IMG/VR virus record: IMGVR_UViG_3300042303_000434
Coordinates: 1-28,024 of that record
Origin: a virus
Direction: 5' to 3' (one strand)
DNA length: 28,024 bases
The notes below the pieces were generated by a model. The model was not told where the DNA came from and did not search any database. It saw only the letters and a list, made by a program, of their open reading frames with translations. Of the stretch, positions 3-22,647 are shown piece after piece. The stretch's first letter is position 1. Every line of letters begins with the position of its first letter. Position numbers and translations under genes: made by a program.

Positions 3-192
3 CAGCCAAATATTACAAGCGTTGGTACATTAACTTCTCTTGCTGTAACCGGAAATGCAACAGTCGGTAACTTGCTTGGACCACACGCAAATGGAAACTC
101 AAATGTCAACATTCCTGCTGCAAATGGCAACGTCAATATCTCAGCCGTAGGTAATGCAAATATTGTAGTAGTAACGGGAACTGGCGCAAACG
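3..192 (+). repeat. Fibre GPHANGNSNVN repeat, copy 1
   Basis: Matches 777-966 at a constant offset of 774 nt. Both encode LLGPHANGNSNVNIPAANGN followed by VNISAVGNAN. Third positions differ in several codons. Confidence 0.85.
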
Positions 193-3100
193 TTGCTGGA
201 ACATTGAATGTGACCGGCAATGCTAACGTCGGTAACTTAGGGTTAGCAACAGGTATCTTTACTACCGCAGCTAACGTACCGCTAGTGCAAAACGGCAATA
301 GTAATATCTCTATTACTGCGAACGGTAATATTACTCTTTCTGCAACAGGCACGCCCGCCGAGATTACTATCACAAGTACTGGAATCAACGTTGCTGGAAC
401 GTTAAACGCTAATGGTAATGCTAACGTAGGTAACTTAGGTACTGCTCAAGTTCTTGCAACTGCGAACGTGACTGCTCCGCAACTAATCTCAAATGTTGCT
501 GCTGGTACTGCTCCGTTTGTAGTAACATCTACCACAGTTGTTCCTAACTTGTATGTTGCTCGTGCAAACATTGCTGATTTTATCAGTGTAGCTGCTGGAA
601 CAGGAAATAACTTCCTCATATTCGCAAACGCAGCAACGGGCAACATATCAGAACTAACAAGCACCGGTCTTACTGCTAACTTATCTAATAACTCTATCAC
701 AGCAACTACATTCGTTGGTGCATTGAGTGGTGCTGCTACGAGCGCAACCACAGCTGGTACTGTAACAACTGCGGCGCAGCCAAATATCACCTCAGTTGGT
801 ACATTAACTTCTCTTGCTGTAACTGGAAATGCAACAGTCGGTAACTTGCTTGGACCACACGCAAACGGCAACTCAAACGTAAATATTCCTGCTGCAAACG
901 GCAATGTCAATATCTCAGCAGTTGGTAATGCTAATGTGCTTGTTGTTACCGGTACTGGAGCAAACATCACCGGTACTGCTAACGTATCCGGAAATCTTTC
1001 TGCTGGTAATATCATAACAGGATCAGGCACAGGTGGTAACATCTCTGGTGCTAATGTTATTACTGCTAACTTGTTCACCGGCACACTAACAACAGCAGCA
1101 CAACCAAACATTACATCAGTTGGTACACTAACATCAGCGACAGTGACAGGTAACGTTGCAGCAGGTAACTTAACTACAACTGGTATACTTAGTGTAACAG
1201 GCACAGGCGTAAGCAGCATTGCTGGTAATTTGGATATGACTAGCAATACAATTATCAATCTTGCTACTCCAACTGCATCAACCGATGCAGCAACCAAACA
1301 ATATGTAGACGATGTTGCTCAAGGTTTGAATATTCACCCTTCTTGTAACGCGGCCACAACTACTACACTTGCAACTATTTCAGGTGGTACAGTTACATAT
1401 AATAACGGTACAGCTGGTGTAGGTGCAACACTAACTACAACAGGTTCATATACAACTATTGATGGTGTCACACTATCAGACGGAATGCGTATTCTTGTTA
1501 AGAACGAAGCAACTCAAGCAAATAATGGTATCTATGTAAGAACAAGTGCAACAGTGTTGACTCGTGCTACTGATTTTGATACTGCTGTTGAAATCGCAGG
1601 TGGTGACTTCACTTTCATCACCGCCGGTACAGTATATAATTCAACTGGTTGGGTGCAAATTGACGAAGTTACTACTGTCGGCACGGATCCAATAGTTTGG
1701 GAGCAGTTCTCAGGTGCGGGAACCTATCAAGCAGGAACTGGTTTAACACTAACTGGTTCAACGTTTAGTGTAAATGCAAGTCAGACACAGGTTACCGCTG
1801 TCGGTACACTAACCGGACTAAACTCAAGCGGCACTATAACAGCCCCGGCATTCACTGCTAACTCCGGCGTATTTACAGGCAATGGTAGTGGACTAACCGC
1901 TCTTACTGGTGCTAACGTAACTGGTACAGTTGCTAACGCAACTTTTGCAACTAGTGCAGGTACAGCTGGTACAGTAACAACAGCAGCACAGCCTAATATT
2001 ACGAGTGTGGGTACATTAACATCACTAGCTGTAACAGGTAACGCAAGTGCAGGTAACCTAAATACTGCCGGAGCAGTAGTAGCAAGTACGCTGACTTCAA
2101 ATGTTGCAACTGGTACTGCTCCATTAACAGTAACAAGTACTACCCGCGTTGCTAACTTGAATGTTAATTATGCAAATGTCGCGGACTTCATTAGCGTAGC
2201 GGCTGGAACAGGTAATAACTTCCTTATCTTTGCAAATGCGGCAACAGGTAATATAACAGAACTAACAAGCACAGGCCTTACTGCTAACTTATCAAACAAT
2301 TCTATTACTGCTACAACATTCGTCGGCGCTCTATCAGGAGCTGCAACAAGTGCCACAACAGCAGGTACAGTAACAACAGCCGCTCAACCAAACATCACTA
2401 GTGTGGGTACGCTTACATCATTAGCAGTTACCGGTAATGCTAACGTTGGTAATTTAAATGCAACTACTGCGGTTGTTGCAAGTACATTAACATCAAATGT
2501 TGCAACAGGTACTGCTCCGTTGACAGTAACTTCAACAACTCGTGTAGCTAACTTGAATGTTAACTATGCAAACGTTGCTGACTTCATTAGCGTAGCTGCT
2601 GGAACAGGAAATAACTTCCTTATCTTTGCAAACGCAGCAACCGGAAACATAACAGAACTAACAAGTACTGGTCTTATTGCTAACTTATCAAACAATTCTA
2701 TTACTGCTACAACTTTTGTCGGCGCCCTATCAGGAGCAGCAACTAGCGCAACTACTGCTGGTACTGTAACAACAGCAGCACAACCAAACATCACTTCAAC
2801 TGGTACGCTAACAAGTTTAGGTGTAAGTGGTACTGTTACTGCATCAGCGTTTACTGCTAATACAGGTGTATTCACTGGTAATGGTAGTGGATTAAGTGCT
2901 ATTGCCGGTGCTAATGTCACTGGTACTGTAGCAAATGCGACATTCGCAACTTCAGCAGGTACTGCTGGTACTGTAACAACAGCAGCACAACCAAATATCA
3001 CAAGCGTTGGTACATTAACATCATTGGGTGTAAATGGAACTATTACTGGTACTAGACTAATTTCAAACATTGCTACTGGTACTGCTCCATTAACAGTAAC

Positions 3101-4046
3101 TTCAACTACGCAAGTAGCAAACTTAAACGTTGCTCAATCAGGTGTTACTGATACGATAAGTGTAGCGGCCGGTACAGGTAATAACTTTATTGTCTTTGCA
3201 AGCGCAGCAACCGGCAATGTTAATGAACTCACCAGCACAGGTCTCACTGCTAACTTATCAAACAATTCTATTACTGCTACAACGTTTGTTGGTGCATTAA
3301 GCGGCGCTGCTACTAGTGCAACCACAGCCGGTACTGTAACAACTGCTGCTCAACCAAACATTACGTCTGTCGGTACACTCACTGGTTTGACTTCAAGTGG
3401 CGCAGTAAGTATCACAAACAGCACTGCGGCGACAAGCAGAACTACTGGTGCGCTAATTGTCACAGGCGGTATTGGTGCAAACGCAAACAGCTTCTTCACA
3501 AACTTAAACATTGCAAGTAATATTGCTTACGTATCACCTAATGCTGCAAATACTATCAACAGCACAATGCTCAATGGCGGTACATTAGCTTGGTCAGGTA
3601 ACGCAGGACAGTTGTTCAGTATTACAGATAGCATGACCGGCAACATCTTTACAGTTAACGATGTTTCTGGTATCCCAATGATTAGTGTTGATGCTGGCGG
3701 CAACATTCAGTTTGCAGCATCAGGTGGCTTTGTATCATATGGTGTCACTACAGGCATTACAGCAGCAGGCTCGACACAGGGTACTGCTACTACACTAACT
3801 AGACCGATCAACGTAGTAAGTACGGTAAGTGCAAGTACTGGTGTTATTCTTCCAACTGTTCCGGCTGGCGCCAGAATCCTTGTTATGAACACAAGTGCTA
3901 CTGCATTGAATGTATATCCTCCTTCTGGTGCTGCTATCAACTCTGCTGCAACTAACGCTGCTTATGCACAACCAGCAGGCGCAAGACTAGAGTTTGTCTC
4001 AGTTTCAGCAACACAATGGTATACGCTAAACGCTACATACGGATAA
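3..4046 (+). CDS. Giant modular tail-fibre protein, 5' partial
   Basis: The frame is already open at the left edge: the first complete codons read QPNITSVGTLTSLAVTGNA, so the gene starts outside the window and the ATG at 72 is internal. The visible part is about 1347 residues, dominated by Ala, Thr, Asn, Gly, Val and Ser, with no Cys-rich or enzymatic motifs. It is a mosaic of beta-rich repeats; the phrase AAQPNITSVGTLT or a close variant recurs eight times. A non-repetitive block (about 1284-1790) begins with ATKQYVDD, a motif I know from many phage tail fibres. The C-terminal 200 residues (from about 3400) are unique and end in a compact domain with ILPTVPAGARILVMN, probably the distal tip or trimerisation part. 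This composition fits a fibrous trimeric host-recognition appendage. Its stop precedes the LamG array by five bases. The family is confident; the exact fibre identity (for example a gp37 equivalent) is not. Confidence 0.85.
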   Translation, partial: QPNITSVGTLTSLAVTGNATVGNLLGPHANGNSNVNIPAANGNVNISAVGNANIVVVTGTGANVAGTLNVTGNANVGNLGLATGIFTTAANVPLVQNGNSNISITANGNITLSATGTPAEITITSTGINVAGTLNANGNANVGNLGTAQVLATANVTAPQLISNVAAGTAPFVVTSTTVVPNLYVARANIADFISVAAGTGNNFLIFANAATGNISELTSTGLTANLSNNSITATTFVGALSGAATSATTAGTVTTAAQPNITSVGTLTSLAVTGNATVGNLLGPHANGNSNVNIPAANGNVNISAVGNANVLVVTGTGANITGTANVSGNLSAGNIITGSGTGGNISGANVITANLFTGTLTTAAQPNITSVGTLTSATVTGNVAAGNLTTTGILSVTGTGVSSIAGNLDMTSNTIINLATPTASTDAATKQYVDDVAQGLNIHPSCNAATTTTLATISGGTVTYNNGTAGVGATLTTTGSYTTIDGVTLSDGMRILVKNEATQANNGIYVRTSATVLTRATDFDTAVEIAGGDFTFITAGTVYNSTGWVQIDEVTTVGTDPIVWEQFSGAGTYQAGTGLTLTGSTFSVNASQTQVTAVGTLTGLNSSGTITAPAFTANSGVFTGNGSGLTALTGANVTGTVANATFATSAGTAGTVTTAAQPNITSVGTLTSLAVTGNASAGNLNTAGAVVASTLTSNVATGTAPLTVTSTTRVANLNVNYANVADFISVAAGTGNNFLIFANAATGNITELTSTGLTANLSNNSITATTFVGALSGAATSATTAGTVTTAAQPNITSVGTLTSLAVTGNANVGNLNATTAVVASTLTSNVATGTAPLTVTSTTRVANLNVNYANVADFISVAAGTGNNFLIFANAATGNITELTSTGLIANLSNNSITATTFVGALSGAATSATTAGTVTTAAQPNITSTGTLTSLGVSGTVTASAFTANTGVFTGNGSGLSAIAGANVTGTVANATFATSAGTAGTVTTAAQPNITSVGTLTSLGVNGTITGTRLISNIATGTAPLTVTSTTQVANLNVAQSGVTDTISVAAGTGNNFIVFASAATGNVNELTSTGLTANLSNNSITATTFVGALSGAATSATTAGTVTTAAQPNITSVGTLTGLTSSGAVSITNSTAATSRTTGALIVTGGIGANANSFFTNLNIASNIAYVSPNAANTINSTMLNGGTLAWSGNAGQLFSITDSMTGNIFTVNDVSGIPMISVDAGGNIQFAASGGFVSYGVTTGITAAGSTQGTATTLTRPINVVSTVSASTGVILPTVPAGARILVMNTSATALNVYPPSGAAINSAATNAAYAQPAGARLEFVSVSATQWYTLNATYG
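489..809 (+). repeat. Fibre 321-nt repeat, copy 1
   Basis: A 107-codon unit running from SNVAAGTAPFVVTSTT to SVGTLT. This is the most divergent N-terminal version (VVPNLYVARANIADF instead of RVANLNVNYANVADF). Confidence 0.85.
777..966 (+). repeat. Fibre GPHANGNSNVN repeat, copy 2
   Basis: Second copy of the block at 3-192, contiguous with the end of 321-nt copy 1. Confidence 0.85.
1836..2021 (+). repeat. Fibre 186-nt repeat, copy 1
   Basis: A 62-codon unit with GVFTGNGSGLTALTGANVTG and ATFATSAGTAGTVTTAAQPN. It precedes 321-nt copy 2. Confidence 0.85.
2097..2417 (+). repeat. Fibre 321-nt repeat, copy 2
   Basis: Same length and reading frame as copy 1. The protein is nearly identical to copy 3, but many third codon positions differ. 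Confidence 0.9.
2493..2813 (+). repeat. Fibre 321-nt repeat, copy 3
   Basis: Begins 396 nt after copy 2. Differs from copy 2 by rare replacements (ANLSNN preceded by LI instead of LT; ITSTGTLT instead of ITSVGTLT) and by synonymous changes. Confidence 0.9.
2835..3020 (+). repeat. Fibre 186-nt repeat, copy 2
   Basis: Same 62-codon unit as at 1836, with GVFTGNGSGLSAIAGANVTG. It precedes 321-nt copy 4, so the 186-plus-321 block has been duplicated as a composite. Confidence 0.85.
3063..3383 (+). repeat. Fibre 321-nt repeat, copy 4
   Basis: The last copy, with a variant centre (QVANLNVAQSGVTDTISV and NNFIVFASAATGNVNE). It directly precedes the unique C-terminal part of the fibre. Confidence 0.85.
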
Positions 4047-4051
4047 TAGTT

Positions 4052-4699
4052 ATGGCTATTTCGTATAATCCAGGAATAGTTACTTCTAACTTAATTGCTT
4101 GTTTTGACCCGGGTAATCTTAGAACTTATCCAGGCTCAGGAACCACTATTAGTGACGCAAGTGGCAACGGATACACCGGCACACTAGTGAACGGTCCTAC
4201 TTATAGCTCAGTTAACGGTGGAGTATTTGTTCTAGATGGGGTAAACGACTACATAGATATTCCTGGACCTAATATGGCATCAACTAATTATACTATAATT
4301 GGTGCAGCGAGATACGCAGTAGCAGGCGGAAGAACCTTTTCCGGCAGAAACAACAATTGGCTAATGGGGCAATGGGGTACTACTACTGAAAACTATTATG
4401 CTGAAGGATGGGTATCTGGAGTTGCCTCCGGGGCCAGTGATACTAATTGGAGAATCTATGCAGCAACTGGCAATATTGCATCTGATTCATATAGCATGTA
4501 TACAAATGGTGTGCTTACTGCCGGCCCAAGCACCGGAGGGAGCCAAGGCCCTAACGGTTTAGGAATCGGCTGCTATTTTCCGGGACTCAGTGAATTTTCT
4601 AATTCTCAGATAGGAATCTTGCTAATATACAACACAGTATTAACTGAGGCTCAGATTATACAAAACTTTAACGCTTACCGAGGGAGATACGGAATATGA
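4052..4699 (+). CDS. LamG-like virion surface protein 1
   Basis: A 215-residue bare LamG/concanavalin-like jelly-roll protein. The start is the ATG at 4052 (MAISYNPGIV), because all paralogues begin with M-x-(I/L/V)-x-x-x-P-x-I-V; an in-frame ATG at 4016 would overlap the fibre gene. Array-wide landmarks are D-x-x-N-x-R-x-Y near residue 20, NGPTYSS at 48-53, LDGVNDY at 61-67, and the terminal QNFNAYRGRYGI. LamG folds bind glycans or protein partners through loops; no catalytic residues are expected. It starts five bases after the fibre stop and ends in an ATGA overlap with the next gene. A role as a fibre-associated receptor binder or decorating protein is inferred from position. Confidence 0.8.
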   Translation: MAISYNPGIVTSNLIACFDPGNLRTYPGSGTTISDASGNGYTGTLVNGPTYSSVNGGVFVLDGVNDYIDIPGPNMASTNYTIIGAARYAVAGGRTFSGRNNNWLMGQWGTTTENYYAEGWVSGVASGASDTNWRIYAATGNIASDSYSMYTNGVLTAGPSTGGSQGPNGLGIGCYFPGLSEFSNSQIGILLIYNTVLTEAQIIQNFNAYRGRYGI

Positions 4700-5349
4700 G
4701 TATTTCGTATAACTCCTCAATTGTAACTAATGGTTTACTATTCTGCGTAGATGCAGCTAATCCAAGAAGTTATCCTGGTTCGGGAACTAATTGGTTTCAA
4801 TTGAGTGGCAGTAATAATACCGGTTCTATCGTAAACGGTCCCACGTACAATTCTGCTAACTTAGGGTCGCTATCTTTTGATGGTGTAGACGATTATGTAG
4901 ATTTCTCAGCTAATTTAGGAACTATGGCAACTTATACTATTATGTTTTGGGCAAAGCGAGACGCTGAAAACAGAATGCCAGTAGCAGCAAGAACCAATGC
5001 TTCATTTTATTGGTACGGTGACAATAGTTGGTTCTACACTCACGGGGGAGCAACCGGAGAATACTATTATAGCAAGCCTACAAGTATCCCACTCGGAACT
5101 TGGGGATGTTATTGCGTATCTTATAACGGTTCAAATGTATCAATATATCGGCAAGGTGTTTATCAGGGTCAGCAATCAACTACCGGAACTGCTGATTGGT
5201 CAGTTGGATTACGAGTAGGCTGGTGGCAACCCGGAGGAGCATATGCTTGGCAAGGTCTCATTTCAAACGTTATGATGTACAACACTGCACTAACTGCTGA
5301 TCAAGTAACACAGAATTTCAATGCTACTAGAGGGAGATATGGATTATGA
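4696..5349 (+). CDS. LamG-like virion surface protein 2
   Basis: A 217-residue bare LamG paralogue with CVDAANPRSYPGSG at residues 17-30, NGPTYNSANLGS, FDGVDDY at 61-67 and the terminal QNFNATRGRYGL. The ATG overlaps the previous stop (ATGA), with a GGGAG ribosome site at 4682-4686 inside the last codons of the previous gene. The middle (about residues 90-190) is rich in Trp, Tyr and Gly and differs sharply from the other paralogues. That fits a conserved scaffold with variable binding loops. Family confident, ligand unknown. Confidence 0.8.
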   Translation: MSISYNSSIVTNGLLFCVDAANPRSYPGSGTNWFQLSGSNNTGSIVNGPTYNSANLGSLSFDGVDDYVDFSANLGTMATYTIMFWAKRDAENRMPVAARTNASFYWYGDNSWFYTHGGATGEYYYSKPTSIPLGTWGCYCVSYNGSNVSIYRQGVYQGQQSTTGTADWSVGLRVGWWQPGGAYAWQGLISNVMMYNTALTADQVTQNFNATRGRYGL

Positions 5350-5615
5350 TTTTAACAGAAGAAAACGGTCTAACATATGTTACGCTTGATTTGAGCGAAG
5401 CATCATCGTTAGACTTTGAACAGATAGAACAAACATCAATTGATACGCTTCGTATCAGTGTAGATGGAACTAAAACAATTGTCAAGTGGATATCTGCCAA
5501 TGGTGTTCCTAGCTCAGTAGCAGCATTGACATCAAAAGGCCCATACATGACGCATGATGAAGCACTAGAACTAATGTCCACTGAAGCCTGGACTATTGAT
5601 ATTCCTTTGGTATAA
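5346..5615 (+). CDS. Small acidic protein of unknown function in LamG array
   Basis: An 89-residue acidic protein unlike its LamG neighbours. It begins MILTEENGLTYVTLDLSE, contains ISVDGTKTIVKWISANG, and ends TIDIPLV. The ATG overlaps the previous stop (ATGA) and has GGGAG at 5332-5336. There is no signal peptide, membrane segment or Cys. It could be a chaperone, a fibre-attachment adaptor or a small virion protein; I do not recognise the family. It ends three bases before the next LamG gene, so it is clearly part of the same translational unit. Confidence 0.7.
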   Translation: MILTEENGLTYVTLDLSEASSLDFEQIEQTSIDTLRISVDGTKTIVKWISANGVPSSVAALTSKGPYMTHDEALELMSTEAWTIDIPLV

Positions 5616-5618
5616 TAT

Positions 5619-6290
5619 ATGGCCCTAGCGCATTCCCCTTCTATAGTAACTACCGGGCTAGTATTATGTGTAGATGCGGGCAATCCTAGATCATATTCGG
5701 GGTCGGGTACACAATGGAATGATGCTACAAGTAGTGGTTTTAATTTTGCTCTAACTAATGGTCCCGTATATTCAAGTAGCAATTTGGGATCATTTACGTT
5801 TGATGGCGTAAATGACTTTGCAAGCGCAAGTGACAACACTGCACTTAACACACAAACTCCTACAGTTGAAGTATGGGTTAAGACAAACGCAACTACACAA
5901 AATGGATTCTGGTTCGAAAAAGGAACTGTAAATTCTCAATATGCATTGTTTCAAGAAGGCGGTTTGATACAATGGAGAATGAATATTGGGGGTGTCACAA
6001 ATCTTTCTACAACTACTGCATCATTTATGAATACATCTAATTGGTTTCAGGTTGTAGGGACTTATACATCTGGTAGTAGAATACTTTATATTAACGGTGT
6101 CCAAGTAAATTCAGATGCACAAACCGGAACAATATCAACTAATGCAAGTGGGATGTACATAGGGTCTTATAACTCAGGCGGATATTACTATAATGGAGCA
6201 TTATCTATTTGCAGAGTGTACAATAGAGTATTGTCAGCCGCAGAAGTGCTACAAAACTTCAACGCAGCACGAGGGAGGTACGGCATCTAA
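5619..6290 (+). CDS. LamG-like virion surface protein 3
   Basis: A 223-residue bare LamG protein. It has the array N-terminus (HSPSIVTTGLVLCVDAGNPR), FDGVNDF at 61-67, a central VEVWVKTNATTQNGFWFEKG strand typical of LamG_3-type domains, ILYINGVQVNSDAQTGTI, and the terminal QNFNAARGRYGI. This is the clearest LamG signature of the set. The start follows the small acidic gene by three bases, and the stop TAATG overlaps the next start by one base. Confidence 0.85.
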   Translation: MALAHSPSIVTTGLVLCVDAGNPRSYSGSGTQWNDATSSGFNFALTNGPVYSSSNLGSFTFDGVNDFASASDNTALNTQTPTVEVWVKTNATTQNGFWFEKGTVNSQYALFQEGGLIQWRMNIGGVTNLSTTTASFMNTSNWFQVVGTYTSGSRILYINGVQVNSDAQTGTISTNASGMYIGSYNSGGYYYNGALSICRVYNRVLSAAEVLQNFNAARGRYGI

Positions 6291-7528
6291 TGGCACTCGG
6301 TCACTCTCCTTCTGTAGTTACTAATGGGTTAGTGTATTGCGCCGACGCTGGAAATCCTCGCAGCTATAGCCCTAATACATTTCCTATTCCGCTAGATATA
6401 TTCGGTTGGAGTGGCACCTCTGCTTACGCAGCAACATTATCAAGAGACTCTACTACCTCACCTAGTCCAGCAGGTGGAATTCCCTTGAAGATGGCTATCT
6501 CTGGAGACGATCCACACATTGCCTCATATAATTCGTCACCTTATAATGTATCAACTGCTGCAAGCGGCCAAACTTGGACGGTAAGTGTGTATGTTAAAGG
6601 ATCAGTTGTTACTACCGGCGAACTATTTATTTTTGGGGCGGACTCAGGCGGCGGCGACTTTACATTTCCTGATTACGGCGCTGGCAGCATCGCTATAACT
6701 ACTGATTGGACAAGAGTAAGTTATTCGTTCACCTTCTCAAATGCAAACGTTGCTTTCATACAATTTAGATTAGACGGAACTCCTACAGGCGGCACCGGCA
6801 CAAACATTTGGTGGGACGGTATTCAAGTAGAACAAGCATCAACTCCTTCTAGTTTTAATCCTATGAAAAATACTAACCGTTCTAATTTACTTGATAGAAG
6901 CGGTAACGCCTTCAATAGCACATTAACTAACGGACCAACTTATAATACATCTAATTTAGGTAGTATCGTATTTGATGGAGTTAATGATTTTTCTACCGTT
7001 ACCCCGACACCGACAGTATTGCAAGGTAATCCTGATCTAACAGTTATGGGCTTTTACTACCGAACTGGTAGTTTCTCAAGCAAAGGTTTTTGGGGTATTG
7101 GCGGCTCAAATGCAGGTGGCACTGCACAAGGAATTTGCAATTGGAACTATAATAACACTAATGAAATCACAGTAGATAGTTGGGGTCAAAGTACTTTCAC
7201 GACCGGACAAACTTATCCACTGAATACATGGATTGGTGTGGCGTGGAGAAAGGTTGCTGGTCCAATGACAAGAGCAAATTGTACTATTTCAATTTTTAAC
7301 GGAACTATGACTAATTACACAGCAGGCGCACTAACAATCTTAAGAGCGGAAGCTGGAACTAATCTTGCTATAAATTCAATTGGTGGAATAACACTAGGTT
7401 CTATTAGTGTAGACACTGGCTACTGTTCTCCGGTTAATATATCTAATCATTATATCTACAGTAGAGTATTAACTGATACAGAAGTACTACAAAACTTTAA
7501 TGCACTCCGTGGAAGGTATGGTATATAA
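6290..7528 (+). CDS. LamG-like protein 4 with carbohydrate-binding-like insert
   Basis: A 412-residue protein. Residues 1-27 are the standard array opening (CADAGNPRSYS). A jelly-roll segment then runs from about 36 to 195 with WTVSVYVKGS, WTRVSYSFTF and IWWDGIQVEQASTPSSF, a pattern typical of carbohydrate-binding-module-like phage domains. LamG resumes with LLDRSGNAFNSTLTNGPTY, FDGVNDF at 228-234, and ends QNFNALRGRYGI. The insert therefore sits inside the first LamG strands rather than at an end. The start overlaps the previous stop (TAATG), with GGAGG at 6274-6278. A glycan-binding role is inferred. Confidence 0.8.
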   Translation: MALGHSPSVVTNGLVYCADAGNPRSYSPNTFPIPLDIFGWSGTSAYAATLSRDSTTSPSPAGGIPLKMAISGDDPHIASYNSSPYNVSTAASGQTWTVSVYVKGSVVTTGELFIFGADSGGGDFTFPDYGAGSIAITTDWTRVSYSFTFSNANVAFIQFRLDGTPTGGTGTNIWWDGIQVEQASTPSSFNPMKNTNRSNLLDRSGNAFNSTLTNGPTYNTSNLGSIVFDGVNDFSTVTPTPTVLQGNPDLTVMGFYYRTGSFSSKGFWGIGGSNAGGTAQGICNWNYNNTNEITVDSWGQSTFTTGQTYPLNTWIGVAWRKVAGPMTRANCTISIFNGTMTNYTAGALTILRAEAGTNLAINSIGGITLGSISVDTGYCSPVNISNHYIYSRVLTDTEVLQNFNALRGRYGI

Positions 7529-8730
7529 TGGCTCTCGCACATTCTCCTTCTATAGTTACTAATGGATTAGTACTTGTTTATGATATGAGCAATACGGGCC
7601 GTTCCTGGAAAGGCGCCCCCACTACAAACCTAGTACCAAACCCGTACGCTAATTGGAACGGATCTAGTTTTGTATTCGGTGGTTATAATTATGATGCTAC
7701 CGGTACACAAACCTATACTTACGTCACAAATGTTTCAAATCCAATCGGTTCTCCCGCAGTAATGCAATATACTACCGGCACAACTGGCTATAAATATTGG
7801 GCAGTTCAAGGTACTGTAGCGACAACAGGCACTCATACCTTTTCGTATTATGCTAGAATCATCAGCGGCCCGACAGCTACCTCTAATCTTAGTAATAGTC
7901 AATTGTGGAGATCAAATGGAGTTGACCAAGCAGTTACTGGCGATTGGAATCCAACATATACTACTGAGTGGGTAAGATATTCAACTACTGGGCCGTGTAC
8001 TGCGGGCACAGTGCTAGATTATTTCCCGATACATTCCGGCGGACTAACGGGTGGATATACAATTCAGTATTGTGGATTTCAACTTGAGCTTGGCACGTAT
8101 GCAACACCGTTTGTCCCAGGTACAAGATCAAACACACAAGCATTATTAGACCCTACTGGTCAGGACATTATTACTGCGACAAGTTTGACATATCCATCAG
8201 ATGGGTCGTTTAGCTTCAATGGATCAAATAATTACCTAACAGTGTCTACTTTTGCAACCAAACCAACAACTGCGATAACCTGCGAGTCTTGGATTAGACC
8301 TACTAAACCGACGGTAACAGGAACTATTAGAGGAGGATCAATTTCTTCAACTAACAGTATGTATTTGGGCATTATTGACTCGACTGACGGAGGAGTAACT
8401 TTTTCACTGCACTGGGCAAATCAAACATCCGTGAGTAGAGTAGCATCGTATAACGGCAGTGTTCCTAATAATGCATGGTCTCACATTGTGGGAACGTATG
8501 ACGGGTCTATCATGAGGGCCTATTTAAACGGGGTGCAAATATATTCTGAAGCACAAACCGGAACAATACCCGATGCAACATATGTGTTAGGAACTTACGG
8601 CTTAGGCCTCACTGACGGCGTGCATAACTTTAATGGTTTATTACCTTTAAGCAGGATCTATAACAGAGCCCTAACAGCAACAGAAGTAATGCAGAACTTT
8701 AACGCATTACGCGGAAGGTATGGGGTATGA
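7528..8730 (+). CDS. LamG-like protein 5 with carbohydrate-binding-like insert
   Basis: A 400-residue protein with the same nested plan as its left neighbour. The opening HSPSIVTNGLVLVYDM is followed by an insert at about 33-203 that closes with GFQLELGTYATPFVPGTR, a phrase common in phage carbohydrate-binding-like domains. LamG resumes at ALLDPTGQ, with FNGSNNY at 230-236, AYLNGVQIYSEAQTGTI and the terminal QNFNALRGRYGV. The insert differs from that of the previous gene but is laid out like that of the paralogue at 12909. The start overlaps the previous stop by one base, with GGAAGG at 7511-7516. Confidence 0.8.
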   Translation: MALAHSPSIVTNGLVLVYDMSNTGRSWKGAPTTNLVPNPYANWNGSSFVFGGYNYDATGTQTYTYVTNVSNPIGSPAVMQYTTGTTGYKYWAVQGTVATTGTHTFSYYARIISGPTATSNLSNSQLWRSNGVDQAVTGDWNPTYTTEWVRYSTTGPCTAGTVLDYFPIHSGGLTGGYTIQYCGFQLELGTYATPFVPGTRSNTQALLDPTGQDIITATSLTYPSDGSFSFNGSNNYLTVSTFATKPTTAITCESWIRPTKPTVTGTIRGGSISSTNSMYLGIIDSTDGGVTFSLHWANQTSVSRVASYNGSVPNNAWSHIVGTYDGSIMRAYLNGVQIYSEAQTGTIPDATYVLGTYGLGLTDGVHNFNGLLPLSRIYNRALTATEVMQNFNALRGRYGV

Positions 8731-10319
8731 GTGTAGCATCTGGTCCAAATATTGTTGTTCCTATTGATACTGTCAGAGTCTTTGCAACCTCTGGAACCTT
8801 TACACCTGCGTTTACGGGAACAGTTGAAGTGTTAGTAGTCGCTGGCGGCGGAGCCGGCGGTGGCGGCATCGGAGGCGGCGGCGGTGGCGGCGGCGTAGTG
8901 TATATGCCTGCCGTGTCAGTTACTTCAGGAACTCCATATACTATTACTGTGGGTGCTGGCGGCACCGCAATAGTATATTCCAGTATCAGCGGCAGCGGAG
9001 GAGACTCTACTGCATTTGGAGCAACTGCTAAGGGAGGCGGAGGTTCCGGAGTACACGATTCAGGTGCCGGCGTAACTGGTGGTTCTGGCGGAGGCGCAGC
9101 ATCAAATAACAGCGTATTAAATCAAGGCGGCACTAGCAGTGGAAATTCATTAGGTTCAAATACCGGAATAATTTACGGCAATCGTGGCGGAAATATGACA
9201 GCCGCCAGAACTAGCGGACCCACAGCAGCAGCAGGCGGCGGCGGCGCTGGTGCAGCAGCAGCAGACACTAATAGTAACACTGTTCAAAGTAGTCCCGGTA
9301 ATGCAAACGGTCGCGGTGGAGCCGGCGTTGTTAATAGTATATTAGGTACAGTATATTACTGGGCTGGCGGTGGCGGAGGCGGCGGCTATTATAATGGCTA
9401 TGCCGGTGACGGCGGCATCGGCGGCGGAGGTGGCGGAAGTTGTTCAGGAGGCATTGGTCCAACTAATGGTGGTGGTAACGGGCTGAATTCGGGCATCGGA
9501 GCAGCAATTGACACCAATGGCGCAGCAGGCGCTATGAACACCGGCGGCGGAGGCGGCGGAGGCGCTTGGCAAGTTACCTCCGGCGGTGCTGGCGGCTCAG
9601 GAATCGTAATCATAAGATACAATTCTTCACTGGGATCAAGTACCGGAGGCGCAGTTGCTTCAGTAGGAGATATGGTAGTGTGCGTAGATGCTGGAAATCC
9701 GCTATCATATCCTGGATCAGGTACATTTTGGAGAGACGTTAGTGGTAGCGGCAATAACGGGACGCTTGTTAATGGCGTTGGATATAACTCAGCTAATTTA
9801 GGATCTCTAGTTTTAGATGGAGTAAATGATTATGTTAGTTTGGGATCGTTTTTCACTTATCAAAACTTTACTATAAGTGTGTGGGTAAACCCAGGTACTA
9901 CGCAAGTTCAATATGCAGACATTTTTGATAACTCGCACACCGGAACACGAAGCTTTGTGCTACAACAAGACAGCACGAATACAAATGTTTATGGATTCGG
10001 CACACATGACGCTACCGGCGGTATAAGTGCTGTTGGAGGAATTTCTCTGACAGCCAACATTTGGACTAATATAACAATGACGTTTACTCCTTCTGACAGA
10101 GCAATTGTGTATGTTAATGGTGTATTTTTAAATCAAGGCGATCTTGCAAACAATAGAAACATTTTATATGATGGTCAATCATTAGATATTGGCAGATGGA
10201 ATTTAGGCGATAGAAACTGGAATGGAAAAATAGCAAGCTTTGTAGCTTACAGCAGAGTGCTTACCGCAGTAGAAATACTACAAAATTTCAATGCACTAAG
10301 AGGGAGATTTAATTTATGA
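8727..10319 (+). CDS. Polyglycine-LamG fusion protein 6
   Basis: A 530-residue protein. Residues 15-300 form a glycine-rich domain that opens with VEVLVVAGGGAGGGG and closes with SGGAGGSGIVIIRYN, the usual boundaries of the phage and bacterial glycine-rich domain family. Runs of Gly suggest polyglycine-II packing, as known in T4-like adhesin gp38 of phage S16 (fold analogy only). LamG follows from about 315 (CVDAGNPLSYPGSG, LDGVNDY at 363-369, terminal QNFNALRGRFNL). The ATGA start overlaps the previous gene, with GGAAGG at 8713-8718. The GGC/GGA/GGT runs raise local GC, but the frame stays open. Likely a distal receptor binder. Confidence 0.8.
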   Translation: MSVASGPNIVVPIDTVRVFATSGTFTPAFTGTVEVLVVAGGGAGGGGIGGGGGGGGVVYMPAVSVTSGTPYTITVGAGGTAIVYSSISGSGGDSTAFGATAKGGGGSGVHDSGAGVTGGSGGGAASNNSVLNQGGTSSGNSLGSNTGIIYGNRGGNMTAARTSGPTAAAGGGGAGAAAADTNSNTVQSSPGNANGRGGAGVVNSILGTVYYWAGGGGGGGYYNGYAGDGGIGGGGGGSCSGGIGPTNGGGNGLNSGIGAAIDTNGAAGAMNTGGGGGGGAWQVTSGGAGGSGIVIIRYNSSLGSSTGGAVASVGDMVVCVDAGNPLSYPGSGTFWRDVSGSGNNGTLVNGVGYNSANLGSLVLDGVNDYVSLGSFFTYQNFTISVWVNPGTTQVQYADIFDNSHTGTRSFVLQQDSTNTNVYGFGTHDATGGISAVGGISLTANIWTNITMTFTPSDRAIVYVNGVFLNQGDLANNRNILYDGQSLDIGRWNLGDRNWNGKIASFVAYSRVLTAVEILQNFNALRGRFNL

Positions 10320-10684
10320 CACATTTTGCTAGAGTACAAGATGGAACTGTAACGGAGGTTATAGTCATCGAACAAGATATGATTGATACTGGTTTGTGGG
10401 GCCCTCCCCAAGAATGGATTCAAACTAGTTACAATACCCACGCCGGTGTTCATACGCAAGGTGGCACACCATTAAGAAAGAATTATGCTGGTGTTGGTTA
10501 TTCATATGATGAAGCTTTGGATGCATTTATCCCTCCGAAGCCATTTGATAGCTGGGTACTTGATGAAACTATTGGTCAATGGAAAGCCCCTATAGACTAC
10601 CCCGATGATGGTAATGCATATGTTTGGAATGAAGCAGTTCAACAATGGGAACTGTCTACCATTGAACCATTAATGGGAGAATAA
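10316..10684 (+). CDS. Conserved small phage virion-type protein
   Basis: A 122-residue protein in a pattern I recognise from many marine T4-like phages. It has MTHFARVQDGTVTEVIV at the start, WIQTSYNTHAGVH, LRKNYAGVGYSYDEALDAF, IPPKPFDSWVLDE, and a Trp-rich tail with YPDDGNAYVWNEAVQQWEL. Relatives usually sit beside tail-fibre or structural genes and are annotated as structural or hypothetical. It separates the two polyglycine-LamG genes. The start overlaps the previous stop (ATGA), with GGGAG at 10302-10306. The gene ends two bases before the next ATG. The biochemical role is unknown. Confidence 0.75.
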   Translation: MTHFARVQDGTVTEVIVIEQDMIDTGLWGPPQEWIQTSYNTHAGVHTQGGTPLRKNYAGVGYSYDEALDAFIPPKPFDSWVLDETIGQWKAPIDYPDDGNAYVWNEAVQQWELSTIEPLMGE

Positions 10685-10686
10685 TA

Positions 10687-12912
10687 ATGGCAATCGCTTC
10701 CGGTCCAAATATCGCTGCTCCTACTGATACTGTCAGAGTTTTTGCAACTTCTGGAGTCTTTACCCCGTCCTTTACAGGTACAATTGAAGTTCTTGTAGTT
10801 GCCGGCGGTGGTGGGGCCGGATCAGATATGGGAGGCGGCGGCGGCGGCGGAGGCGTCATTAGCAATACGAGTGTATCAGTAACCTCAGGTACACCAGTAA
10901 CTGTTACAGTTGGTGCTGGAGGTGCAGGAGCCCCTGCAGGTACTGGTGGACACGCAACTACTAAGGGAACAAATGGCGGAAATAGTATATTTGGTAGCAA
11001 TACTGCTGTTGGTGGTGGAGCAGGCGGAACATCATACTATACGTTTGGTAACAGTTTTGGTAATAGTGGTGGCTCTGGCGGCGGCGGGTCTGGTTATAAC
11101 AACGGTGTAACCCCTGCATTGTCTACTGGAACAGGCTACGGTGCGTCTGGTACCGGTACTGCCGGACAAGGAAATCGCGGGGGCTGGGGTAACAGTTCTT
11201 ACTATAGTGGTGGTGGTGGTGGCGCTGGTGGCGCCGGCACTGATGCGAATAACACACCCAATGGTGGCCCAGGCATAGCGAATGGCATACTCAATCGTAA
11301 TCTTTTTTGGGGCGGTGGTGGAGGTGGCGCAGCATATAGTTTAAGTGCAGGAGGTAACGGCGGCGTTGGTGGAGGTGGTGGCGGCGCAGTCGGAGTGACT
11401 ACTGGGGGAACTGGGTATAATAATGGTTCTCCTGGAGGTGGCGGTTCTCCTAACTCACAAACAAACACTCCGGGCGGCGATGGTGGCCTCAACACGGGCG
11501 GCGGCGGAGGAGGCGGCTCCCACTATAACTTCACGAATAAAGGCGGTGACGGTGGATCTGGAATTGTAATTGTCAGATACAATTCTTCTTTGGGAGAGAG
11601 TACTGGAGGAGCACCTATCTCAGTAGGAAATATGGCTCTATGCTTAGATGCTGCTAATCCTAATTCAAACGTAGGCAATCGCTCTGTCATCAACTGGAAC
11701 AACTGGGTCACTGGTTCAGGCAGTATTACTGGTTATAGTCAAAACGGGGCAACGGCTGAAAACGAAAGAGTAGTTGCAAGTAATCCATGGGGTAATAATG
11801 CAGTTGTTTGGGAAGCAAGACCACTAGCAGAAACTAATGATGACGGTGGCTGGAACACAGCAGATTTTGCTATAGACAATACTCAACTATATCGTTTCTC
11901 AGTATGGGTTCGTAGAACATCAAGTACCGGTGGCGGCACATTTTATTTAGGTACTGGAAGTAACGGCGGCCTGCGCAAAATGAGTGATGATACAGCAGCA
12001 GACAATCCGTATTGGGAGTGCAGCGGTACTAGTGGGTTAGCACAGAATACTTGGTACTTGTTTGTAGGTCATATATATCCAGCCAACACTACATTCACTG
12101 GTAGAAATCCTACTACTGGATATTATACTATTAACGGTAGAGCCGGTGATATAAACGGGTGCAACATTGGCACCGGTGATTTAAAGTGGAATTCCAATTC
12201 AACTACAAGTCTACATAGAACGTATTTGTATTATTGTGCAGATAACACTACAAGATTACAATTCTATCAACCAAGAGTAGATTTGTGTGATGGCACAGAA
12301 CCTAATATCCAAGAACTACTGCAAAACGCAGGCAATACGTGGTATGATATAAGCGGCAGTAACAACAACTGTACATTTCTAGATTTGCCTTCTACTAACA
12401 ATGGGTTTTATACTTTTAACGGTACTAGTAATTACGGTACAATTATCAATAACGCTACTTTGAATTTTGCTTCTGCTCAATCGTTACAGATAGTAATGAG
12501 ACACACATATACCTCAGGTAGAAGAAATCCATGGGACCAAGCGTATGGCGGGTATGGTACTTGGACACACGAACAAGGCGAAAACATCAGCGGCTTCTAC
12601 GGAAATGCAGGATCAAACGCTGAACCATATGTGGGGGTAGGAAGCCCGACAACCCCTAGAAGTGTTTGGAATGTAATATCTACTGTTAGAAGCACTAGTC
12701 AATATAAATGGTATCTAAATGGAGCGTTGAGTGTAACCACAGCTAATCCATATGGGGTTTTAGCTAACACACCAGCCAACATCACCATAGGTAATGGCTA
12801 TGCAGGATTTTGGCAAGGTGATATGGCTATGGTTACTGCTTACACTAGGGCACTATCTGATGCTGAAGTAGCACAAAACTTTAATGCTATACGCGGGAGA
12901 TTCAACTTATGA
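10687..12912 (+). CDS. Polyglycine-LamG fusion protein 7 with nested insert
   Basis: At 741 residues this is the largest array member, with three parts. Residues 15-300 are glycine-rich, closely parallel to the gene at 8727 (VEVLVVAGGGGAGSD to SGIVIVRYNSSLGESTGG). LamG opens at about 312 (MALCLDAANPNSN). A large insert at about 330-548 has YRFSVWVRRTSSTGGGTFYL, NTWYLFVGHIYP and LQFYQPRVDLCDG, resembling a carbohydrate-binding or jelly-roll domain. LamG then resumes with TWYDISGSNN, FNGTSNY at 577-583 and the terminal QNFNAIRGRFNL. It combines the two elaborations found separately elsewhere in the array. It ends ATGA with the next gene. Confidence 0.8.
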   Translation: MAIASGPNIAAPTDTVRVFATSGVFTPSFTGTIEVLVVAGGGGAGSDMGGGGGGGGVISNTSVSVTSGTPVTVTVGAGGAGAPAGTGGHATTKGTNGGNSIFGSNTAVGGGAGGTSYYTFGNSFGNSGGSGGGGSGYNNGVTPALSTGTGYGASGTGTAGQGNRGGWGNSSYYSGGGGGAGGAGTDANNTPNGGPGIANGILNRNLFWGGGGGGAAYSLSAGGNGGVGGGGGGAVGVTTGGTGYNNGSPGGGGSPNSQTNTPGGDGGLNTGGGGGGGSHYNFTNKGGDGGSGIVIVRYNSSLGESTGGAPISVGNMALCLDAANPNSNVGNRSVINWNNWVTGSGSITGYSQNGATAENERVVASNPWGNNAVVWEARPLAETNDDGGWNTADFAIDNTQLYRFSVWVRRTSSTGGGTFYLGTGSNGGLRKMSDDTAADNPYWECSGTSGLAQNTWYLFVGHIYPANTTFTGRNPTTGYYTINGRAGDINGCNIGTGDLKWNSNSTTSLHRTYLYYCADNTTRLQFYQPRVDLCDGTEPNIQELLQNAGNTWYDISGSNNNCTFLDLPSTNNGFYTFNGTSNYGTIINNATLNFASAQSLQIVMRHTYTSGRRNPWDQAYGGYGTWTHEQGENISGFYGNAGSNAEPYVGVGSPTTPRSVWNVISTVRSTSQYKWYLNGALSVTTANPYGVLANTPANITIGNGYAGFWQGDMAMVTAYTRALSDAEVAQNFNAIRGRFNL

Positions 12913-14111
12913 GTGTAGCATCCGGTCCTAAAATAGTTACTGATGGATTACTGTTTGGTTATGATATGTATGATCCGCAGTCGTATAGAGGAGCAGCCGT
13001 ATCAAACCAATTTGCGGTCCCTACTCCCGATGGTAGCAATAATGTTGCCTTTCAAGTTCAAGGCACCGGAACGTTTCAGCGAACATATTCAGGAACATTT
13101 GATAACTACTCTATTACGAATAATGATGTAGTATACCGATATGATTTAGTTGCAGCAGGCGGATGCTATTACCATGGCAACGATGTTAGTATTACTGCTG
13201 GTCAGTGGGCAACGTTTACATTTGATTATTATATTTCCCCGGGTGCTGGCGGATATCCTGTTACCAACTATCTCGCTAATTTTGAATCGGCAGTAAGTAA
13301 CTCAGCAGCCGATCCTACGCCGACAGTAACCGGCGTTTGGAAAACGGCTACATTTACTGCTCAGGCCGGATCTACTGGCACATGTAGAATGTTATTATAT
13401 CCAGGTGCATGTAACGGAACTAGTTTAGCTACTAGTGGATTCATTCTTTATAGAAACCCTCAGGTATTAATTAGTTCATCTAGTAACTTTACTGCTCCGT
13501 TTGTAGGTCCGTTTGGCTCCAGAAGCTCAACTAATGCACTGCTAGATGTTACTGGAAGTAGAACAATAACTATCAATAGTTTAACCTACGCATCTAATAA
13601 TACATTTAGCTTTAACGGATCAACCGACTTCTTAACTATCCCTACAATTAGTTTAGGTAATGGAAATCTGCCATGGACTGTTAGTGCTTGGGTTAAAACT
13701 ACTACTGATGCAACCGGTCTTGGTCAAGGTTCAATACTGTCCAACTTAAGTGGCGGACCAGTATACTCAGCTTTATGTGTAAACAGCGGAAAGATTGCAT
13801 ATTGGACTTATCAAAACTCTGCATGGGCACAGAAGTTAGGCGTTGGTACAACTGTCAACGATAATAACTGGCATTTGCTAACTTGGGTAAACAATTCTAA
13901 TAGTACGATGGCTATGTATGTAGACGGGGTATTAGACAGTAATGTGGCAAACTCTACATCAGGAAATAATAACCCGGTTGATACAATAGGCAACTCTTGG
14001 AACGCAAAATTTGCAGGTAGCATACCCGCTATACAAGTGTATAATGTCGCACTGACAGCAGAACAGGTTGCATTAAACTTTGCTGCATTTAGAGGGAAAT
14101 ACGGAGTATGA
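12909..14111 (+). CDS. LamG-like protein 8 with carbohydrate-binding-like insert
   Basis: A 400-residue protein, the last array member and the same length as the one at 7528. It opens VASGPKIVTDGLLFGYDMYD, has an insert at about 33-205 ending NFTAPFVGPFGSRS, and resumes LamG at NALLDVTG with FNGSTDF at 235-241. It contains WTVSAWVKTT and AMYVDGVLD, and ends with the degenerate terminal motif LNFAAFRGKYGV. Its N-terminus matches the polyglycine genes (SVASGP), whereas its body matches the gene at 7528, so it looks like a recombinant. The start overlaps the previous stop (ATGA), with GGGAG at 12895-12899. Confidence 0.8.
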   Translation: MSVASGPKIVTDGLLFGYDMYDPQSYRGAAVSNQFAVPTPDGSNNVAFQVQGTGTFQRTYSGTFDNYSITNNDVVYRYDLVAAGGCYYHGNDVSITAGQWATFTFDYYISPGAGGYPVTNYLANFESAVSNSAADPTPTVTGVWKTATFTAQAGSTGTCRMLLYPGACNGTSLATSGFILYRNPQVLISSSSNFTAPFVGPFGSRSSTNALLDVTGSRTITINSLTYASNNTFSFNGSTDFLTIPTISLGNGNLPWTVSAWVKTTTDATGLGQGSILSNLSGGPVYSALCVNSGKIAYWTYQNSAWAQKLGVGTTVNDNNWHLLTWVNNSNSTMAMYVDGVLDSNVANSTSGNNNPVDTIGNSWNAKFAGSIPAIQVYNVALTAEQVALNFAAFRGKYGV

Positions 14112-14738: not shown

Positions 14739-17044
14739 TTAATGTAAAGAAACGATCGGGTAACACAGAGCCGCTTGCCCTGGAAAAGTGGCAACAACAG
14801 ATTACAAAGGTGTGCAATGGCACGGCTGATGTAAGTCAATCCATGATAGAAATCAAAGCACATCCACAGTTTTATGATGGCATCACTACACGAGAGATTG
14901 ATGAAATCACTCTTAGAGCTATCGTGGACTTGATTGATGTTGAAAGTAATCCTGATGTTGGACACGTTAATTATCAATACGTTGCTGGTAGACAACGACT
15001 TTCTATGCTTCGTAAAGATGTTTACGGAGACTACCAAGTACCACACTTGTATGAAATTGTTAAGACTAATGTAGCAACAGGCCTATATACTAATGAACTT
15101 TTAGAATGGTATTCCGAAGACGATTGGAATAAGATGAATGACTTCATCGAACATGAAAAGGATGAGGAGTACTCATACGCAGCAATCGAACAGATGATTG
15201 AAAAATATCTTGTTCGCAATAGAGCAACAAAAGAAATCTACGAAACTCCACAAGTTCGCTATTTGATTGCGGCTGCAACAATATTTCACCGTGAAGAAGC
15301 TAGCAAGCGCCTCAAGTTTATTAAGGAATACTACAATGCAGCGAGTGATGGTCTGTTTACCCTGGCTACTCCTGTGCTTGCTGGTCTCGGCACTCCAACT
15401 AAACAGTTTAGTTCTTGCGTCCTTATTCGCAGCGACGATGATTTGGATTCGATTTTCGCTTCCGGAGAAATGATGGCTAAGTATGCTAGCAAACGAGCTG
15501 GCATTGGATTAGAAATCGGCAGACTTCGCTCCCTCGGTTCGCCTATTCGAGGGGGCGAAATCATGCATACTGGTATGATTCCGTTTCTAAAGAAGTGGTT
15601 CGGTGACTTACGTTCTTGCTCACAGGGCGGAATTCGTAATGCATCGGCTACTGTGTTCTATCCTATCTGGCACTATCAGTTTGATGACTTGATCGTTCTC
15701 AAGAACAATCAGGGCACCGAAGAAACCCGTGTTCGTCACATGGACTATGGTGTTGTTCTTAGTGCATTCTTTTGGAAGCGGTTCAAGAACAAAGAGAATA
15801 TCACATTCTTTGATCCAAACGAAGTGCCTGATTTGTATGAAGCATTCTATCAAAATACAGCAAAGTTTGAAGAACTTTATGTGAAGTATGAAAAGCGTAA
15901 GGATTTACGTAAGAAGGTAATGAGTGCTGAGGAAGTCTTTAAGGGAGGCATTCTTAAGGAACGCACTGACACAGGTAGAATCTATCTTGTGTTCATTGAC
16001 AACGTTATGAATCAAGGTCCGTTCGACCCTGAGTATCATACAATCTATCAATCAAACCTCTGTGTCGAGATCCTTCTTCCCACAAAGTCATTCAAGCGTC
16101 TAGATGATCCTGCAGGACGAATCGCACTTTGTACCCTCGGGAGTATGAATTGGGGTGCGTTTAGAAATCCAGAAGATATGCGTAGAGCATGTCGGATTCT
16201 ATTGCGCAGTCTAAACAACATTCTTGATTATCAGGACTTCTTGTCAATTCAGTCTAAGCTGTCAAACGATGAGATTAGACCAATTGGTATTGGTGTAACT
16301 AATCTTGCATACTGGCATGCCAAACGTGGATACAAGTACGGCGAATCAGAAGCACTACAAGACGTAAAGAGTTGGGCAGAACATCAAACATATTATTTGA
16401 TGGAAGCCAATGTTGAACTTGCTAAAGAACGTGGTAAGTGCTTAGACAGTGACAAGACTCGTTATGGTAACGGAATCTTCTCTTGGGAGCTTCGCTCAAA
16501 TGGAGCTAACGAACTAGCTGACTTTACTCCTGAACTTGAATGGGAAACGCTTCGTGCGGACATGGTAGAATACGGGGTGCGTAATGCTACAGTAGGTGCA
16601 ATTGCTCCAGTAGAATCAAGTTCAGTAGTTATCAATTCTACTAACGGAATCGCAATGCCAATGAGCTTGATTAGTGTTAAGGAAAGTAAGGCTGGGTCAT
16701 TCATTCAGGTTGTCCCTGAATATCAAAAGTTGAAGAACAAGTATCAGCTTATGTGGGACCAAACAGATTGCGTAGGTTATCTCAAGACCTCTGCTGTTCT
16801 TGCTGCTTATATGGATCAGTCAATCAGTACTGACACATTCTATAACCCTGCTCACTTCCCTGATAGAAAAGTCCCAACTACTCTTATCGCAAAGAACTTG
16901 ATGCTTGCTCATAAGTGGGGAATTAAGACTCTCTATTACAGCTTGATTAACAAGAAGGGTTCTAAAGAAGAGGAAGATGAAGCACCACTAGAAGTTATTG
17001 ACTTCTTTGAAGATGATGGTGATTGCGAAAGCTGTAAATTATAA
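14735..17044 (+). CDS. nrdA: Class Ia ribonucleotide reductase, alpha (large) subunit
   Basis: A 769-residue protein, full length for class Ia NrdA. It reduces ribonucleoside diphosphates to deoxy forms with the NrdB radical. An ATP-cone (about 1-95, VKKRSGNTEPL) should give dATP/ATP activity control. Active-site residues are all present: C228 (FSSCVLI) and C466 (ALCTLGSMNW) as the redox pair, N441-x-C443-x-E445 in NLCVEILLPT with the thiyl cysteine, the radical-relay YY at 734-735 (TLYYSLI), and the C-terminal shuttle pair C764/C767 (CESCKL), which glutaredoxin or thioredoxin recharges. No intein or frameshift is visible at the usual sites. The ATGA start overlaps the upstream gene, and the stop overlaps the aldolase start by one base. 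Confidence 0.97.
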   Translation: MINVKKRSGNTEPLALEKWQQQITKVCNGTADVSQSMIEIKAHPQFYDGITTREIDEITLRAIVDLIDVESNPDVGHVNYQYVAGRQRLSMLRKDVYGDYQVPHLYEIVKTNVATGLYTNELLEWYSEDDWNKMNDFIEHEKDEEYSYAAIEQMIEKYLVRNRATKEIYETPQVRYLIAAATIFHREEASKRLKFIKEYYNAASDGLFTLATPVLAGLGTPTKQFSSCVLIRSDDDLDSIFASGEMMAKYASKRAGIGLEIGRLRSLGSPIRGGEIMHTGMIPFLKKWFGDLRSCSQGGIRNASATVFYPIWHYQFDDLIVLKNNQGTEETRVRHMDYGVVLSAFFWKRFKNKENITFFDPNEVPDLYEAFYQNTAKFEELYVKYEKRKDLRKKVMSAEEVFKGGILKERTDTGRIYLVFIDNVMNQGPFDPEYHTIYQSNLCVEILLPTKSFKRLDDPAGRIALCTLGSMNWGAFRNPEDMRRACRILLRSLNNILDYQDFLSIQSKLSNDEIRPIGIGVTNLAYWHAKRGYKYGESEALQDVKSWAEHQTYYLMEANVELAKERGKCLDSDKTRYGNGIFSWELRSNGANELADFTPELEWETLRADMVEYGVRNATVGAIAPVESSSVVINSTNGIAMPMSLISVKESKAGSFIQVVPEYQKLKNKYQLMWDQTDCVGYLKTSAVLAAYMDQSISTDTFYNPAHFPDRKVPTTLIAKNLMLAHKWGIKTLYYSLINKKGSKEEEDEAPLEVIDFFEDDGDCESCKL

Positions 17045-17664
17045 TGTTAGAAACAATTTGCGATATTTTAAAGGATGCCTATGCTCGTAACTGGATTACT
17101 AGCCGCGACGGCAACATCAGTATTCGCCATCATGACCGTGACCACTTCTATATCACACCTAGTGGTGTAAGAAAGCAGACACTACAGCCCGATCAATTCA
17201 AAAAGATTGGGTTAAATGAGAACGGCTGGCAAGTTTTACCCTACACCGCTATCTCTAGTGAGCTACAGCCAAGCGGAGAGATTCCCCTGCACTATGGCTT
17301 ACTAAAAGCTTTAGGTCAGCACAGTGATGACATTCGTGTTGTAGTCCATGTTCACCCTACATACTGTGTTGCTGCAATGCACGCCGGTATTAACTTGAAT
17401 GAGCTTGTGATACACTTCCCTGAGTTGGGCAGGTACACTAGAGTCGCTCCAAATGTAGGCGATGTTCCTCCTATCAGTGAAGAACTTGCTACACAATGTC
17501 ATACTAACTTAGGACTTGACAGTGAAGGCAATATTGCTTATGACATTGTAGGCATTAAGGGGCATGGTGTAGTTGCAATTGACACTACTCCCTGGCGAGC
17601 ATATGAACATATTGAGCGTCTAGAACATATTTGTAAAATCGTATTAGCATCGGGGAATTATTAA
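17044..17664 (+). CDS. Class II aldolase/adducin family protein
   Basis: A 206-residue protein, a single class II aldolase domain. It has GNIS at 23-26, ITPSG at 37-41, PSGEIPLH with E79 at the position of the catalytic Glu of FucA, the zinc pair H102/H104 in VVHVHPTYC, and H174 in KGHGVV. All three His ligands and the Glu are present, so it is probably active. The superfamily includes fuculose-1-phosphate aldolase, ribulose-phosphate epimerase, methylthioribulose-1-phosphate dehydratase (MtnB) and 5-deoxyribulose-1-phosphate aldolase; the sequence alone does not decide among them. It lies between nrdA and nrdB, overlapping nrdA by one base and abutting nrdB, so it is co-expressed with them. 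Acquisition from a bacterium is likely. Confidence 0.9.
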   Translation: MLETICDILKDAYARNWITSRDGNISIRHHDRDHFYITPSGVRKQTLQPDQFKKIGLNENGWQVLPYTAISSELQPSGEIPLHYGLLKALGQHSDDIRVVVHVHPTYCVAAMHAGINLNELVIHFPELGRYTRVAPNVGDVPPISEELATQCHTNLGLDSEGNIAYDIVGIKGHGVVAIDTTPWRAYEHIERLEHICKIVLASGNY

Positions 17665-19326: not shown

Positions 19327-19599
19327 ATGGGAAAACCACTAAGTAGAATAGGCGATATTAACACGGGCGGCGGAAAGATTATTAGAGGAGCAAAGACTGT
19401 CTTCGCTAACAATCGTCCGGTTGGACTGCACGTAAGTAAAATAACTCCTCACCCTGCCGGTGGTCCACATAAAGCATCGGTAACCCTTACTGGAAGCCCA
19501 ACTGTATTTGCTGAAGGTGTTCCGGTATTAAGAGTTGGGTCAAGCACCACATGCGGTCACCCGATAATACAGGGTAGCCCTACTGTATTTGTGAGTTAA
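19327..19599 (+). CDS. PAAR-motif spike-tip protein
   Basis: A 90-residue PAAR-family protein, the sharp zinc-bound cone that caps the tail spike of contractile phages (T4 gp5.4 type) and type VI secretion systems. It has the repeated TGSPTVFAEG and QGSPTVFV strands, MGKPLSRIGD at the start, and candidate zinc ligands H35, H42, H48, C76 and H78 (CGHPI). It carries no effector extension. It is one of the clearest indications of a contractile tail. It sits just before the large virion protein, with which it may assemble. Confidence 0.93.
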   Translation: MGKPLSRIGDINTGGGKIIRGAKTVFANNRPVGLHVSKITPHPAGGPHKASVTLTGSPTVFAEGVPVLRVGSSTTCGHPIIQGSPTVFVS

Positions 19600-22628: not shown

Positions 22629-22647
22629 TCTTAATAAAGGAAATAAT

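Follow-up and report, generated by a model that had tools for sequence, protein, structure and literature searches.

The LamG array

We have analyzed a virus fragment of 28,024 bp, called here the window, that comes from a lake virus of bacteria and carries ribonucleotide reductase and metK-like genes. A megablast search against phages gave no match. Eight LamG (PF13385) paralogues are located directly after a fibre-like gene, forming one array. The fibre-like gene and the paralogues with an uninterrupted LamG domain are the following:

72-4046: fibre-like protein, long and repeat-rich, with several near-identical copies of TTAAQPNITSVGTLTSL and NGNSNVNI repeats; immediately precedes the LamG array
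4052-4696, 4696-5346 and 5619-6287, + strand: three bare LamG paralogues (g4052, g4696 and g5619), taken as the reference state
8727..10316, + strand: LamG paralogue g8727, with a glycine-rich domain that is N-terminal and not nested, followed by a bare LamG

The fibre-like protein weakly matched a tail fibre PHROG. All three bare paralogues matched PHROG 24074, and the second and third matched PF13385 as well. In g8727 the glycine-rich domain (PF21722) was detected at 21-298 and PF13385 at 364-517; a glycine-rich domain of this kind is also N-terminal in g10687. Two small genes interrupt the array (5346-5615 and 10316-10684), the second of which matches phrog_7759 (unknown function). A PAAR-motif protein (spike tip) is encoded at 19327-19599, 5 kb downstream of the array. 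Adjoining the structural region there are genes for an aldolase-like protein (17044-17664), an S-adenosylmethionine synthetase (22600-23745) and a radical-SAM-like protein (25587-27191), likely auxiliary metabolic genes; the metK name comes from comparison and the other two from reading the sequence.

A domain between the first two strands of LamG

In the other four paralogues (g6290, g7528, g10687 and g12909) a domain of 172-220 residues was found between strand 1 and strand 2 of LamG. Their parts are:

6290..6370, + strand: g6290 LamG strand 1 (N-terminal LamG half), from motif and alignment
6371..6886, + strand: g6290 insert, 172 residues; GTA_spike_fiber NF048003 above cutoff, weak CBM_4_9
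6887..7525, + strand: g6290 LamG body, strand 2 to C-terminus; 83% identity to the body of an insert-free relative (L016)
7528..7611, + strand: g7528 LamG strand 1; model strand 14-19, within the stretch that aligns with solved LamG domains
7612..8139, + strand: g7528 insert, 176 residues, CBM4/9-like; 95% identity to an insert of L003 whose LamG body is otherwise distant
8140..8727, + strand: g7528 LamG body; PF13385, E 1.8e-23
10687..11586, + strand: g10687 N-terminal glycine-rich domain; PF21722, E 2.6e-11
11587..11670, + strand: g10687 LamG strand 1, after the glycine-rich domain; motif and model
11671..12330, + strand: g10687 insert, 220 residues; a sequence family apart from the other three (separate phmmer cluster); model
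12331..12909, + strand: g10687 LamG body; PF13385, E 1.7e-9
12909..12989, + strand: g12909 LamG strand 1, from motif and alignment
12990..13535, + strand: g12909 insert, 182 residues; close relatives (L003_7811) in the CBM4/9-like insert cluster
13536..14108, + strand: g12909 LamG body; PF13385, E 1.7e-17

The strand-1 motif (DxxNPxSY) appears as CADAGNPRSY in g6290, VYDMSNTGRSW in g7528, CLDAANPNS in g10687 and GYDMYDPQSY in g12909, and the strand-2 motif (W/LxDxS/TG) as LLDRSG, LLDPTG, WYDISG and LLDVTG, respectively. Between the strand-1 D and the strand-2 W there are only ~14 residues in the bare paralogues and in the LamG part of g8727. PF13385 was above its cutoff in g7528, g12909 and g10687 (a protein of 741 residues with the insert-bearing LamG as its C-terminal part), and g6290 was recognized as LamG through a custom LamG profile only. 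An initial annotation had reported the two motifs split by inserts that differ among themselves, and both statements hold at these coordinates: pairwise identities among the four inserts are 25-34%, with that of g10687 in a separate family. The observation is confirmed and turned out to be broader than first stated.

We collected 330 unique full LamG domains from loci of relatives. A clear strand 1 (profile score of 9 or more, where shuffled sequence reached 2.9 at most) was present in 301 of them. The gap between strands 1 and 2 was bimodal in these 301, with 235 domains at 0-20 residues, three at 20-40, none at 40-140 and 62 at 140-300; the one remaining domain had a negative gap and falls outside the bins. 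The nested cases represent 37 loci, some of them overlapping on one contig. This spacing pattern is far above chance.

Does the LamG fold close around the insert? AlphaFold2 models were examined for g7528 (mean pLDDT 81.8) and for the C-terminal 441 residues of g10687 (82.1); the input alignments included sequences without the insert, and these may have helped to place strand 1. For both models, all 50 matches listed were LamG-type alignments running from strand 1 through the insert to the C-terminus. The VIA-align alignments to solved LamG domains start at model residues 1-15, in most cases at ~10-14. With 5hon_A, the isolated domain 4 of the arabinanase AbnA (206 residues), 189 residues were aligned, with Z 20.6 for g7528 and 21.6 for g10687. 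LamG-like domains of sialidases and binding regions of clostridial neurotoxins also scored high, a similarity of fold only. Since the alignments begin at strand 1 and end after the insert, LamG appears to close around it. The strand pairing, deduced from the first and last aligned residues and not from hydrogen bonds, agrees with the strand-1 motif common to the bare paralogues. The models thus support an insert nested within the LamG sandwich. It is very improbable that the N-terminal 30 residues belong to the insert domain and leave the LamG body incomplete without them: PF13385 does begin after strand 1, which places this strand outside the profile hits taken alone, but bare and nested genes share the same strand-1 motif, the models align to solved domains from about residue 10-14, and in the clearest swap described below strand 1 does not move with the insert (44% against 95% identity). 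Profile annotation misses strand 1, and such proteins are then described as an ordinary LamG preceded by an unknown N-terminal region; the nesting explains why.

Insert families and their exchange

The largest group of inserts consists of CBM4/9-type jelly rolls. The GTA head-spike-fibre family NF048003 matched 24 of the 43 inserts scanned (best E 2.3e-35), and its curated cutoff of 36 bits was passed by g6290 (41.4) and by the g7528 insert alone (37.1). PF02018 (CBM_4_9) was found in 7/43 at E<=0.01, with g6290 below the cutoff at E 0.013. Besides, the insert profile matched the CBM4 of a Rhodothermus xylanase (3jxs, E 8.4e-9), the laminarinase CBM 1gui and the baseplate triplex protein gp45. 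The inserts had been called carbohydrate-binding-like, and these matches bear this out only at the level of fold or family, sugar binding being a predicted property. The same CBM-like family also has structural roles, in the baseplate gp45/gp46 chains of 8env and 9b45.

Other occupants of the slot are Gly_rich_2 domains (11 cases, checked on the sequences), the family of the g10687 insert, two small groups without a Pfam name and, in L056_3722, a LamG inside LamG. Judged by these family assignments, the slot accepts several unrelated domain families. A false strand-1 call was suspected in the glycine-rich cases and dismissed, as strand 1 did not recur past the insert when the sequences were read. 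An ILEI-like domain, suspected in the insert of L017/L072, was dropped, since Pfam and PDB searches supported no name.

The comparison of g7528 with L003_5308 gave the clearest evidence of exchange. At the amino acid level the insert is 95% identical, the LamG body 35% and strand 1 44%. At the DNA level, identity goes from 62-67% in strand 1 to 84-100% from about residue 30, and is mostly 33-58% past about residue 210, so that the breaks fall at the insert borders. Similarly, g6290 and L018_177 share 84% of the insert and 31% of the LamG body (amino acids), and the g6290 body was found in insert-free relatives (L016_4956, 83%; L017_4899, 77%). Strand 1 itself is weakly correlated with both insert and body (partial r 0.18 and 0.25). 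Mapped on a tree built from 136 LamG bodies, the bare or nested state must change 35 times. Well-supported (starred) branches force at least 18 of these changes, in a topology that is poorly resolved (66/133 branches open) and where gain and loss are indistinguishable. Insert and LamG body have independent histories. That the architectures are old and stably inherited by each paralogue, their inserts differing by divergence without exchange, would suit the g10687-type and g12909-type pairs, which keep insert and body together (70-96% in both), but uniform divergence cannot produce a 95% insert with a 35% body, nor an 83% body without insert, and we give this explanation hardly any credit. The proposal that this position is a docking site for module swapping is upheld: unrelated domains share one slot, and the mosaic breakpoints are sharp and coincide with the insert borders.

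The close relative L003 (707-9052) has the same array as the window (4052-14108) with extra bare paralogues, and its counterpart of g10687 is devoid of the N-terminal glycine-rich domain. Therefore, whole genes and N-terminal domains also turn over.

Candidate adhesins and related systems

The nested architecture is also present in isolates, namely Flavobacterium phage immuto_222 and Synechococcus phage Sf-FP1. In immuto a fibre-like gene is accompanied by one nested and two bare LamG genes, the bare ones carrying a structural-protein annotation. In Sf-FP1 the nested LamG is C-terminal, and comparable C-terminal arrangements in Syn1 and S-H9-1 have weaker strand-1 scores. The module occurs in other contexts as well: in P-SSM3, P-SSM4 and Syn19, proteins encoded next to the fibre gene contain relatives of the g6290 insert but are not LamG proteins.

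The reading that we favor, with a probability of about 0.72, is that these proteins are virion adhesins in which one tolerant loop of LamG acts as a module dock. They would be adhesins of a large tailed phage, encoded right after the long fibre protein, and the structural annotation of the neighbors of nested genes in isolates was counted in favor of this reading. Each is built on a LamG/ConA-like sandwich, with a conserved C-terminus (QNFNAxRGRYG) that probably serves for shared packing or attachment. The loop between strands 1 and 2 accommodates whole folded domains, and selection for varied binding to host surfaces would have made it the main site of module exchange, the modules presumably facing outward and binding sugars. 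Exchange of inserts would then probably vary which sugars the virus grips.

Alternatively, the nested domains might be structural spacers or oligomerisation elements of a fibre or baseplate, exchanged by neutral recombination in a tolerant slot. Related domains do occur in the phage baseplate triplex proteins (8env, 9b45), the inserts are very diverse in sequence, and the annotation of the glycine-rich ones is not that of carbohydrate-binding families. However, the strong turnover of modules would fit a recognition element better than a packing element, the insert profile finds true CBM4 domains in a xylanase and a laminarinase as well, and 24 of the 43 inserts match the GTA head-spike-fibre family. 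We consider this alternative unlikely, although it deserves more weight than the two dismissed above.

The closest precedent for docked adhesins is the evolved Dit of siphophages of Gram-positive bacteria, whose galectin domain carries CBMs in its loops; for some of these proteins, binding to the host has been demonstrated (PMC7291167, PMC9437275). In both systems a CBM-type domain is nested in a loop of a beta-sandwich virion protein (for LamG, a putative virion role) and plain and 'evolved' versions coexist. In phage p2 the Dit has a long insertion directly after the first strand of the galectin domain. Besides, the BppA CBM resembles 1GUI (PMC7291167), the structure also matched by the insert profile here. 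The nested LamG resembles an evolved Dit without being one: LamG takes the place of the galectin domain as host, several unrelated module families use the slot, and the genes form multi-gene paralogue arrays in large aquatic phages. Scans of the LamG proteins against Pfam, PHROGs and NCBIfam found no Dit family. By analogy, nested LamG proteins probably work as evolved Dits do, but on a different fold, with a broader choice of modules and as members of arrays.

The GTA/phage head spike fibre domain is similar as the family that many inserts match, but here it is nested in LamG and in a tail-fibre-type neighborhood, not in a head spike gene. For the host-recognition cluster of T4-like cyanophages and pelagimyophages, the excerpted part of PMC7029224 describes, as here, fibre genes in a hypervariable region and structural proteins that contain ConA-type domains, but that part mentions neither a nested slot nor within-gene cassette exchange. 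We found no description of the LamG slot in the open-access papers searched, which is not proof of absence. The usual account of change in phage adhesins is the swapping of fibre tips or tails. Here, whole domains of unrelated families are inserted into a single fold at one internal loop, and their exchange is visible in the nucleotide sequence. Bodies with and without insert, and one insert in different bodies, provide a natural series for testing the share of the nested module in host binding, and Flavobacterium phage immuto is a cultured system for such tests.

Many CBM-type inserts start with GAPTTN and end with TRSNTQ despite their different interiors, and immuto_222 has the same borders as RGRPTVN and TRSSTQ. 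Exchange might proceed by recombination at these short conserved borders. In four paralogues of L131 the 24-nt start tract is 83-100% identical, against 22-65% in the flanks, and at the DNA level the signal is clear in this one phage family only. Because border identity is high in L131 but not in L005, we keep guided recombination as a hypothesis. The wider proposal, that the loop is a general and actively used dock where the border tracts guide in-frame exchange of unrelated whole domains among paralogues and among phages of different bacterial phyla, seems doubtful to us.

Inserts elsewhere in the LamG body were searched by a distance measure that recovered 52/52 controls and was applicable to 115 domains; it exposed L092 and L056. 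A complementary split HMM scan, which found none, was discarded after recovering 0/52 planted inserts in its positive control. L092 (3378-5753) is doubly nested: strand 1 is followed by one extra domain, and a mid-body loop houses a DUF5122 beta-propeller. The slot between strands 1 and 2 is thus preferred and not unique, since the mid-body loop is occupied by this propeller in L092 and, in L056_168, probably by LamG domains. The latter (L056, 168-3701) is a protein of 1,178 residues with five LamG hits, two of which are apparently nested in another LamG at this second loop.
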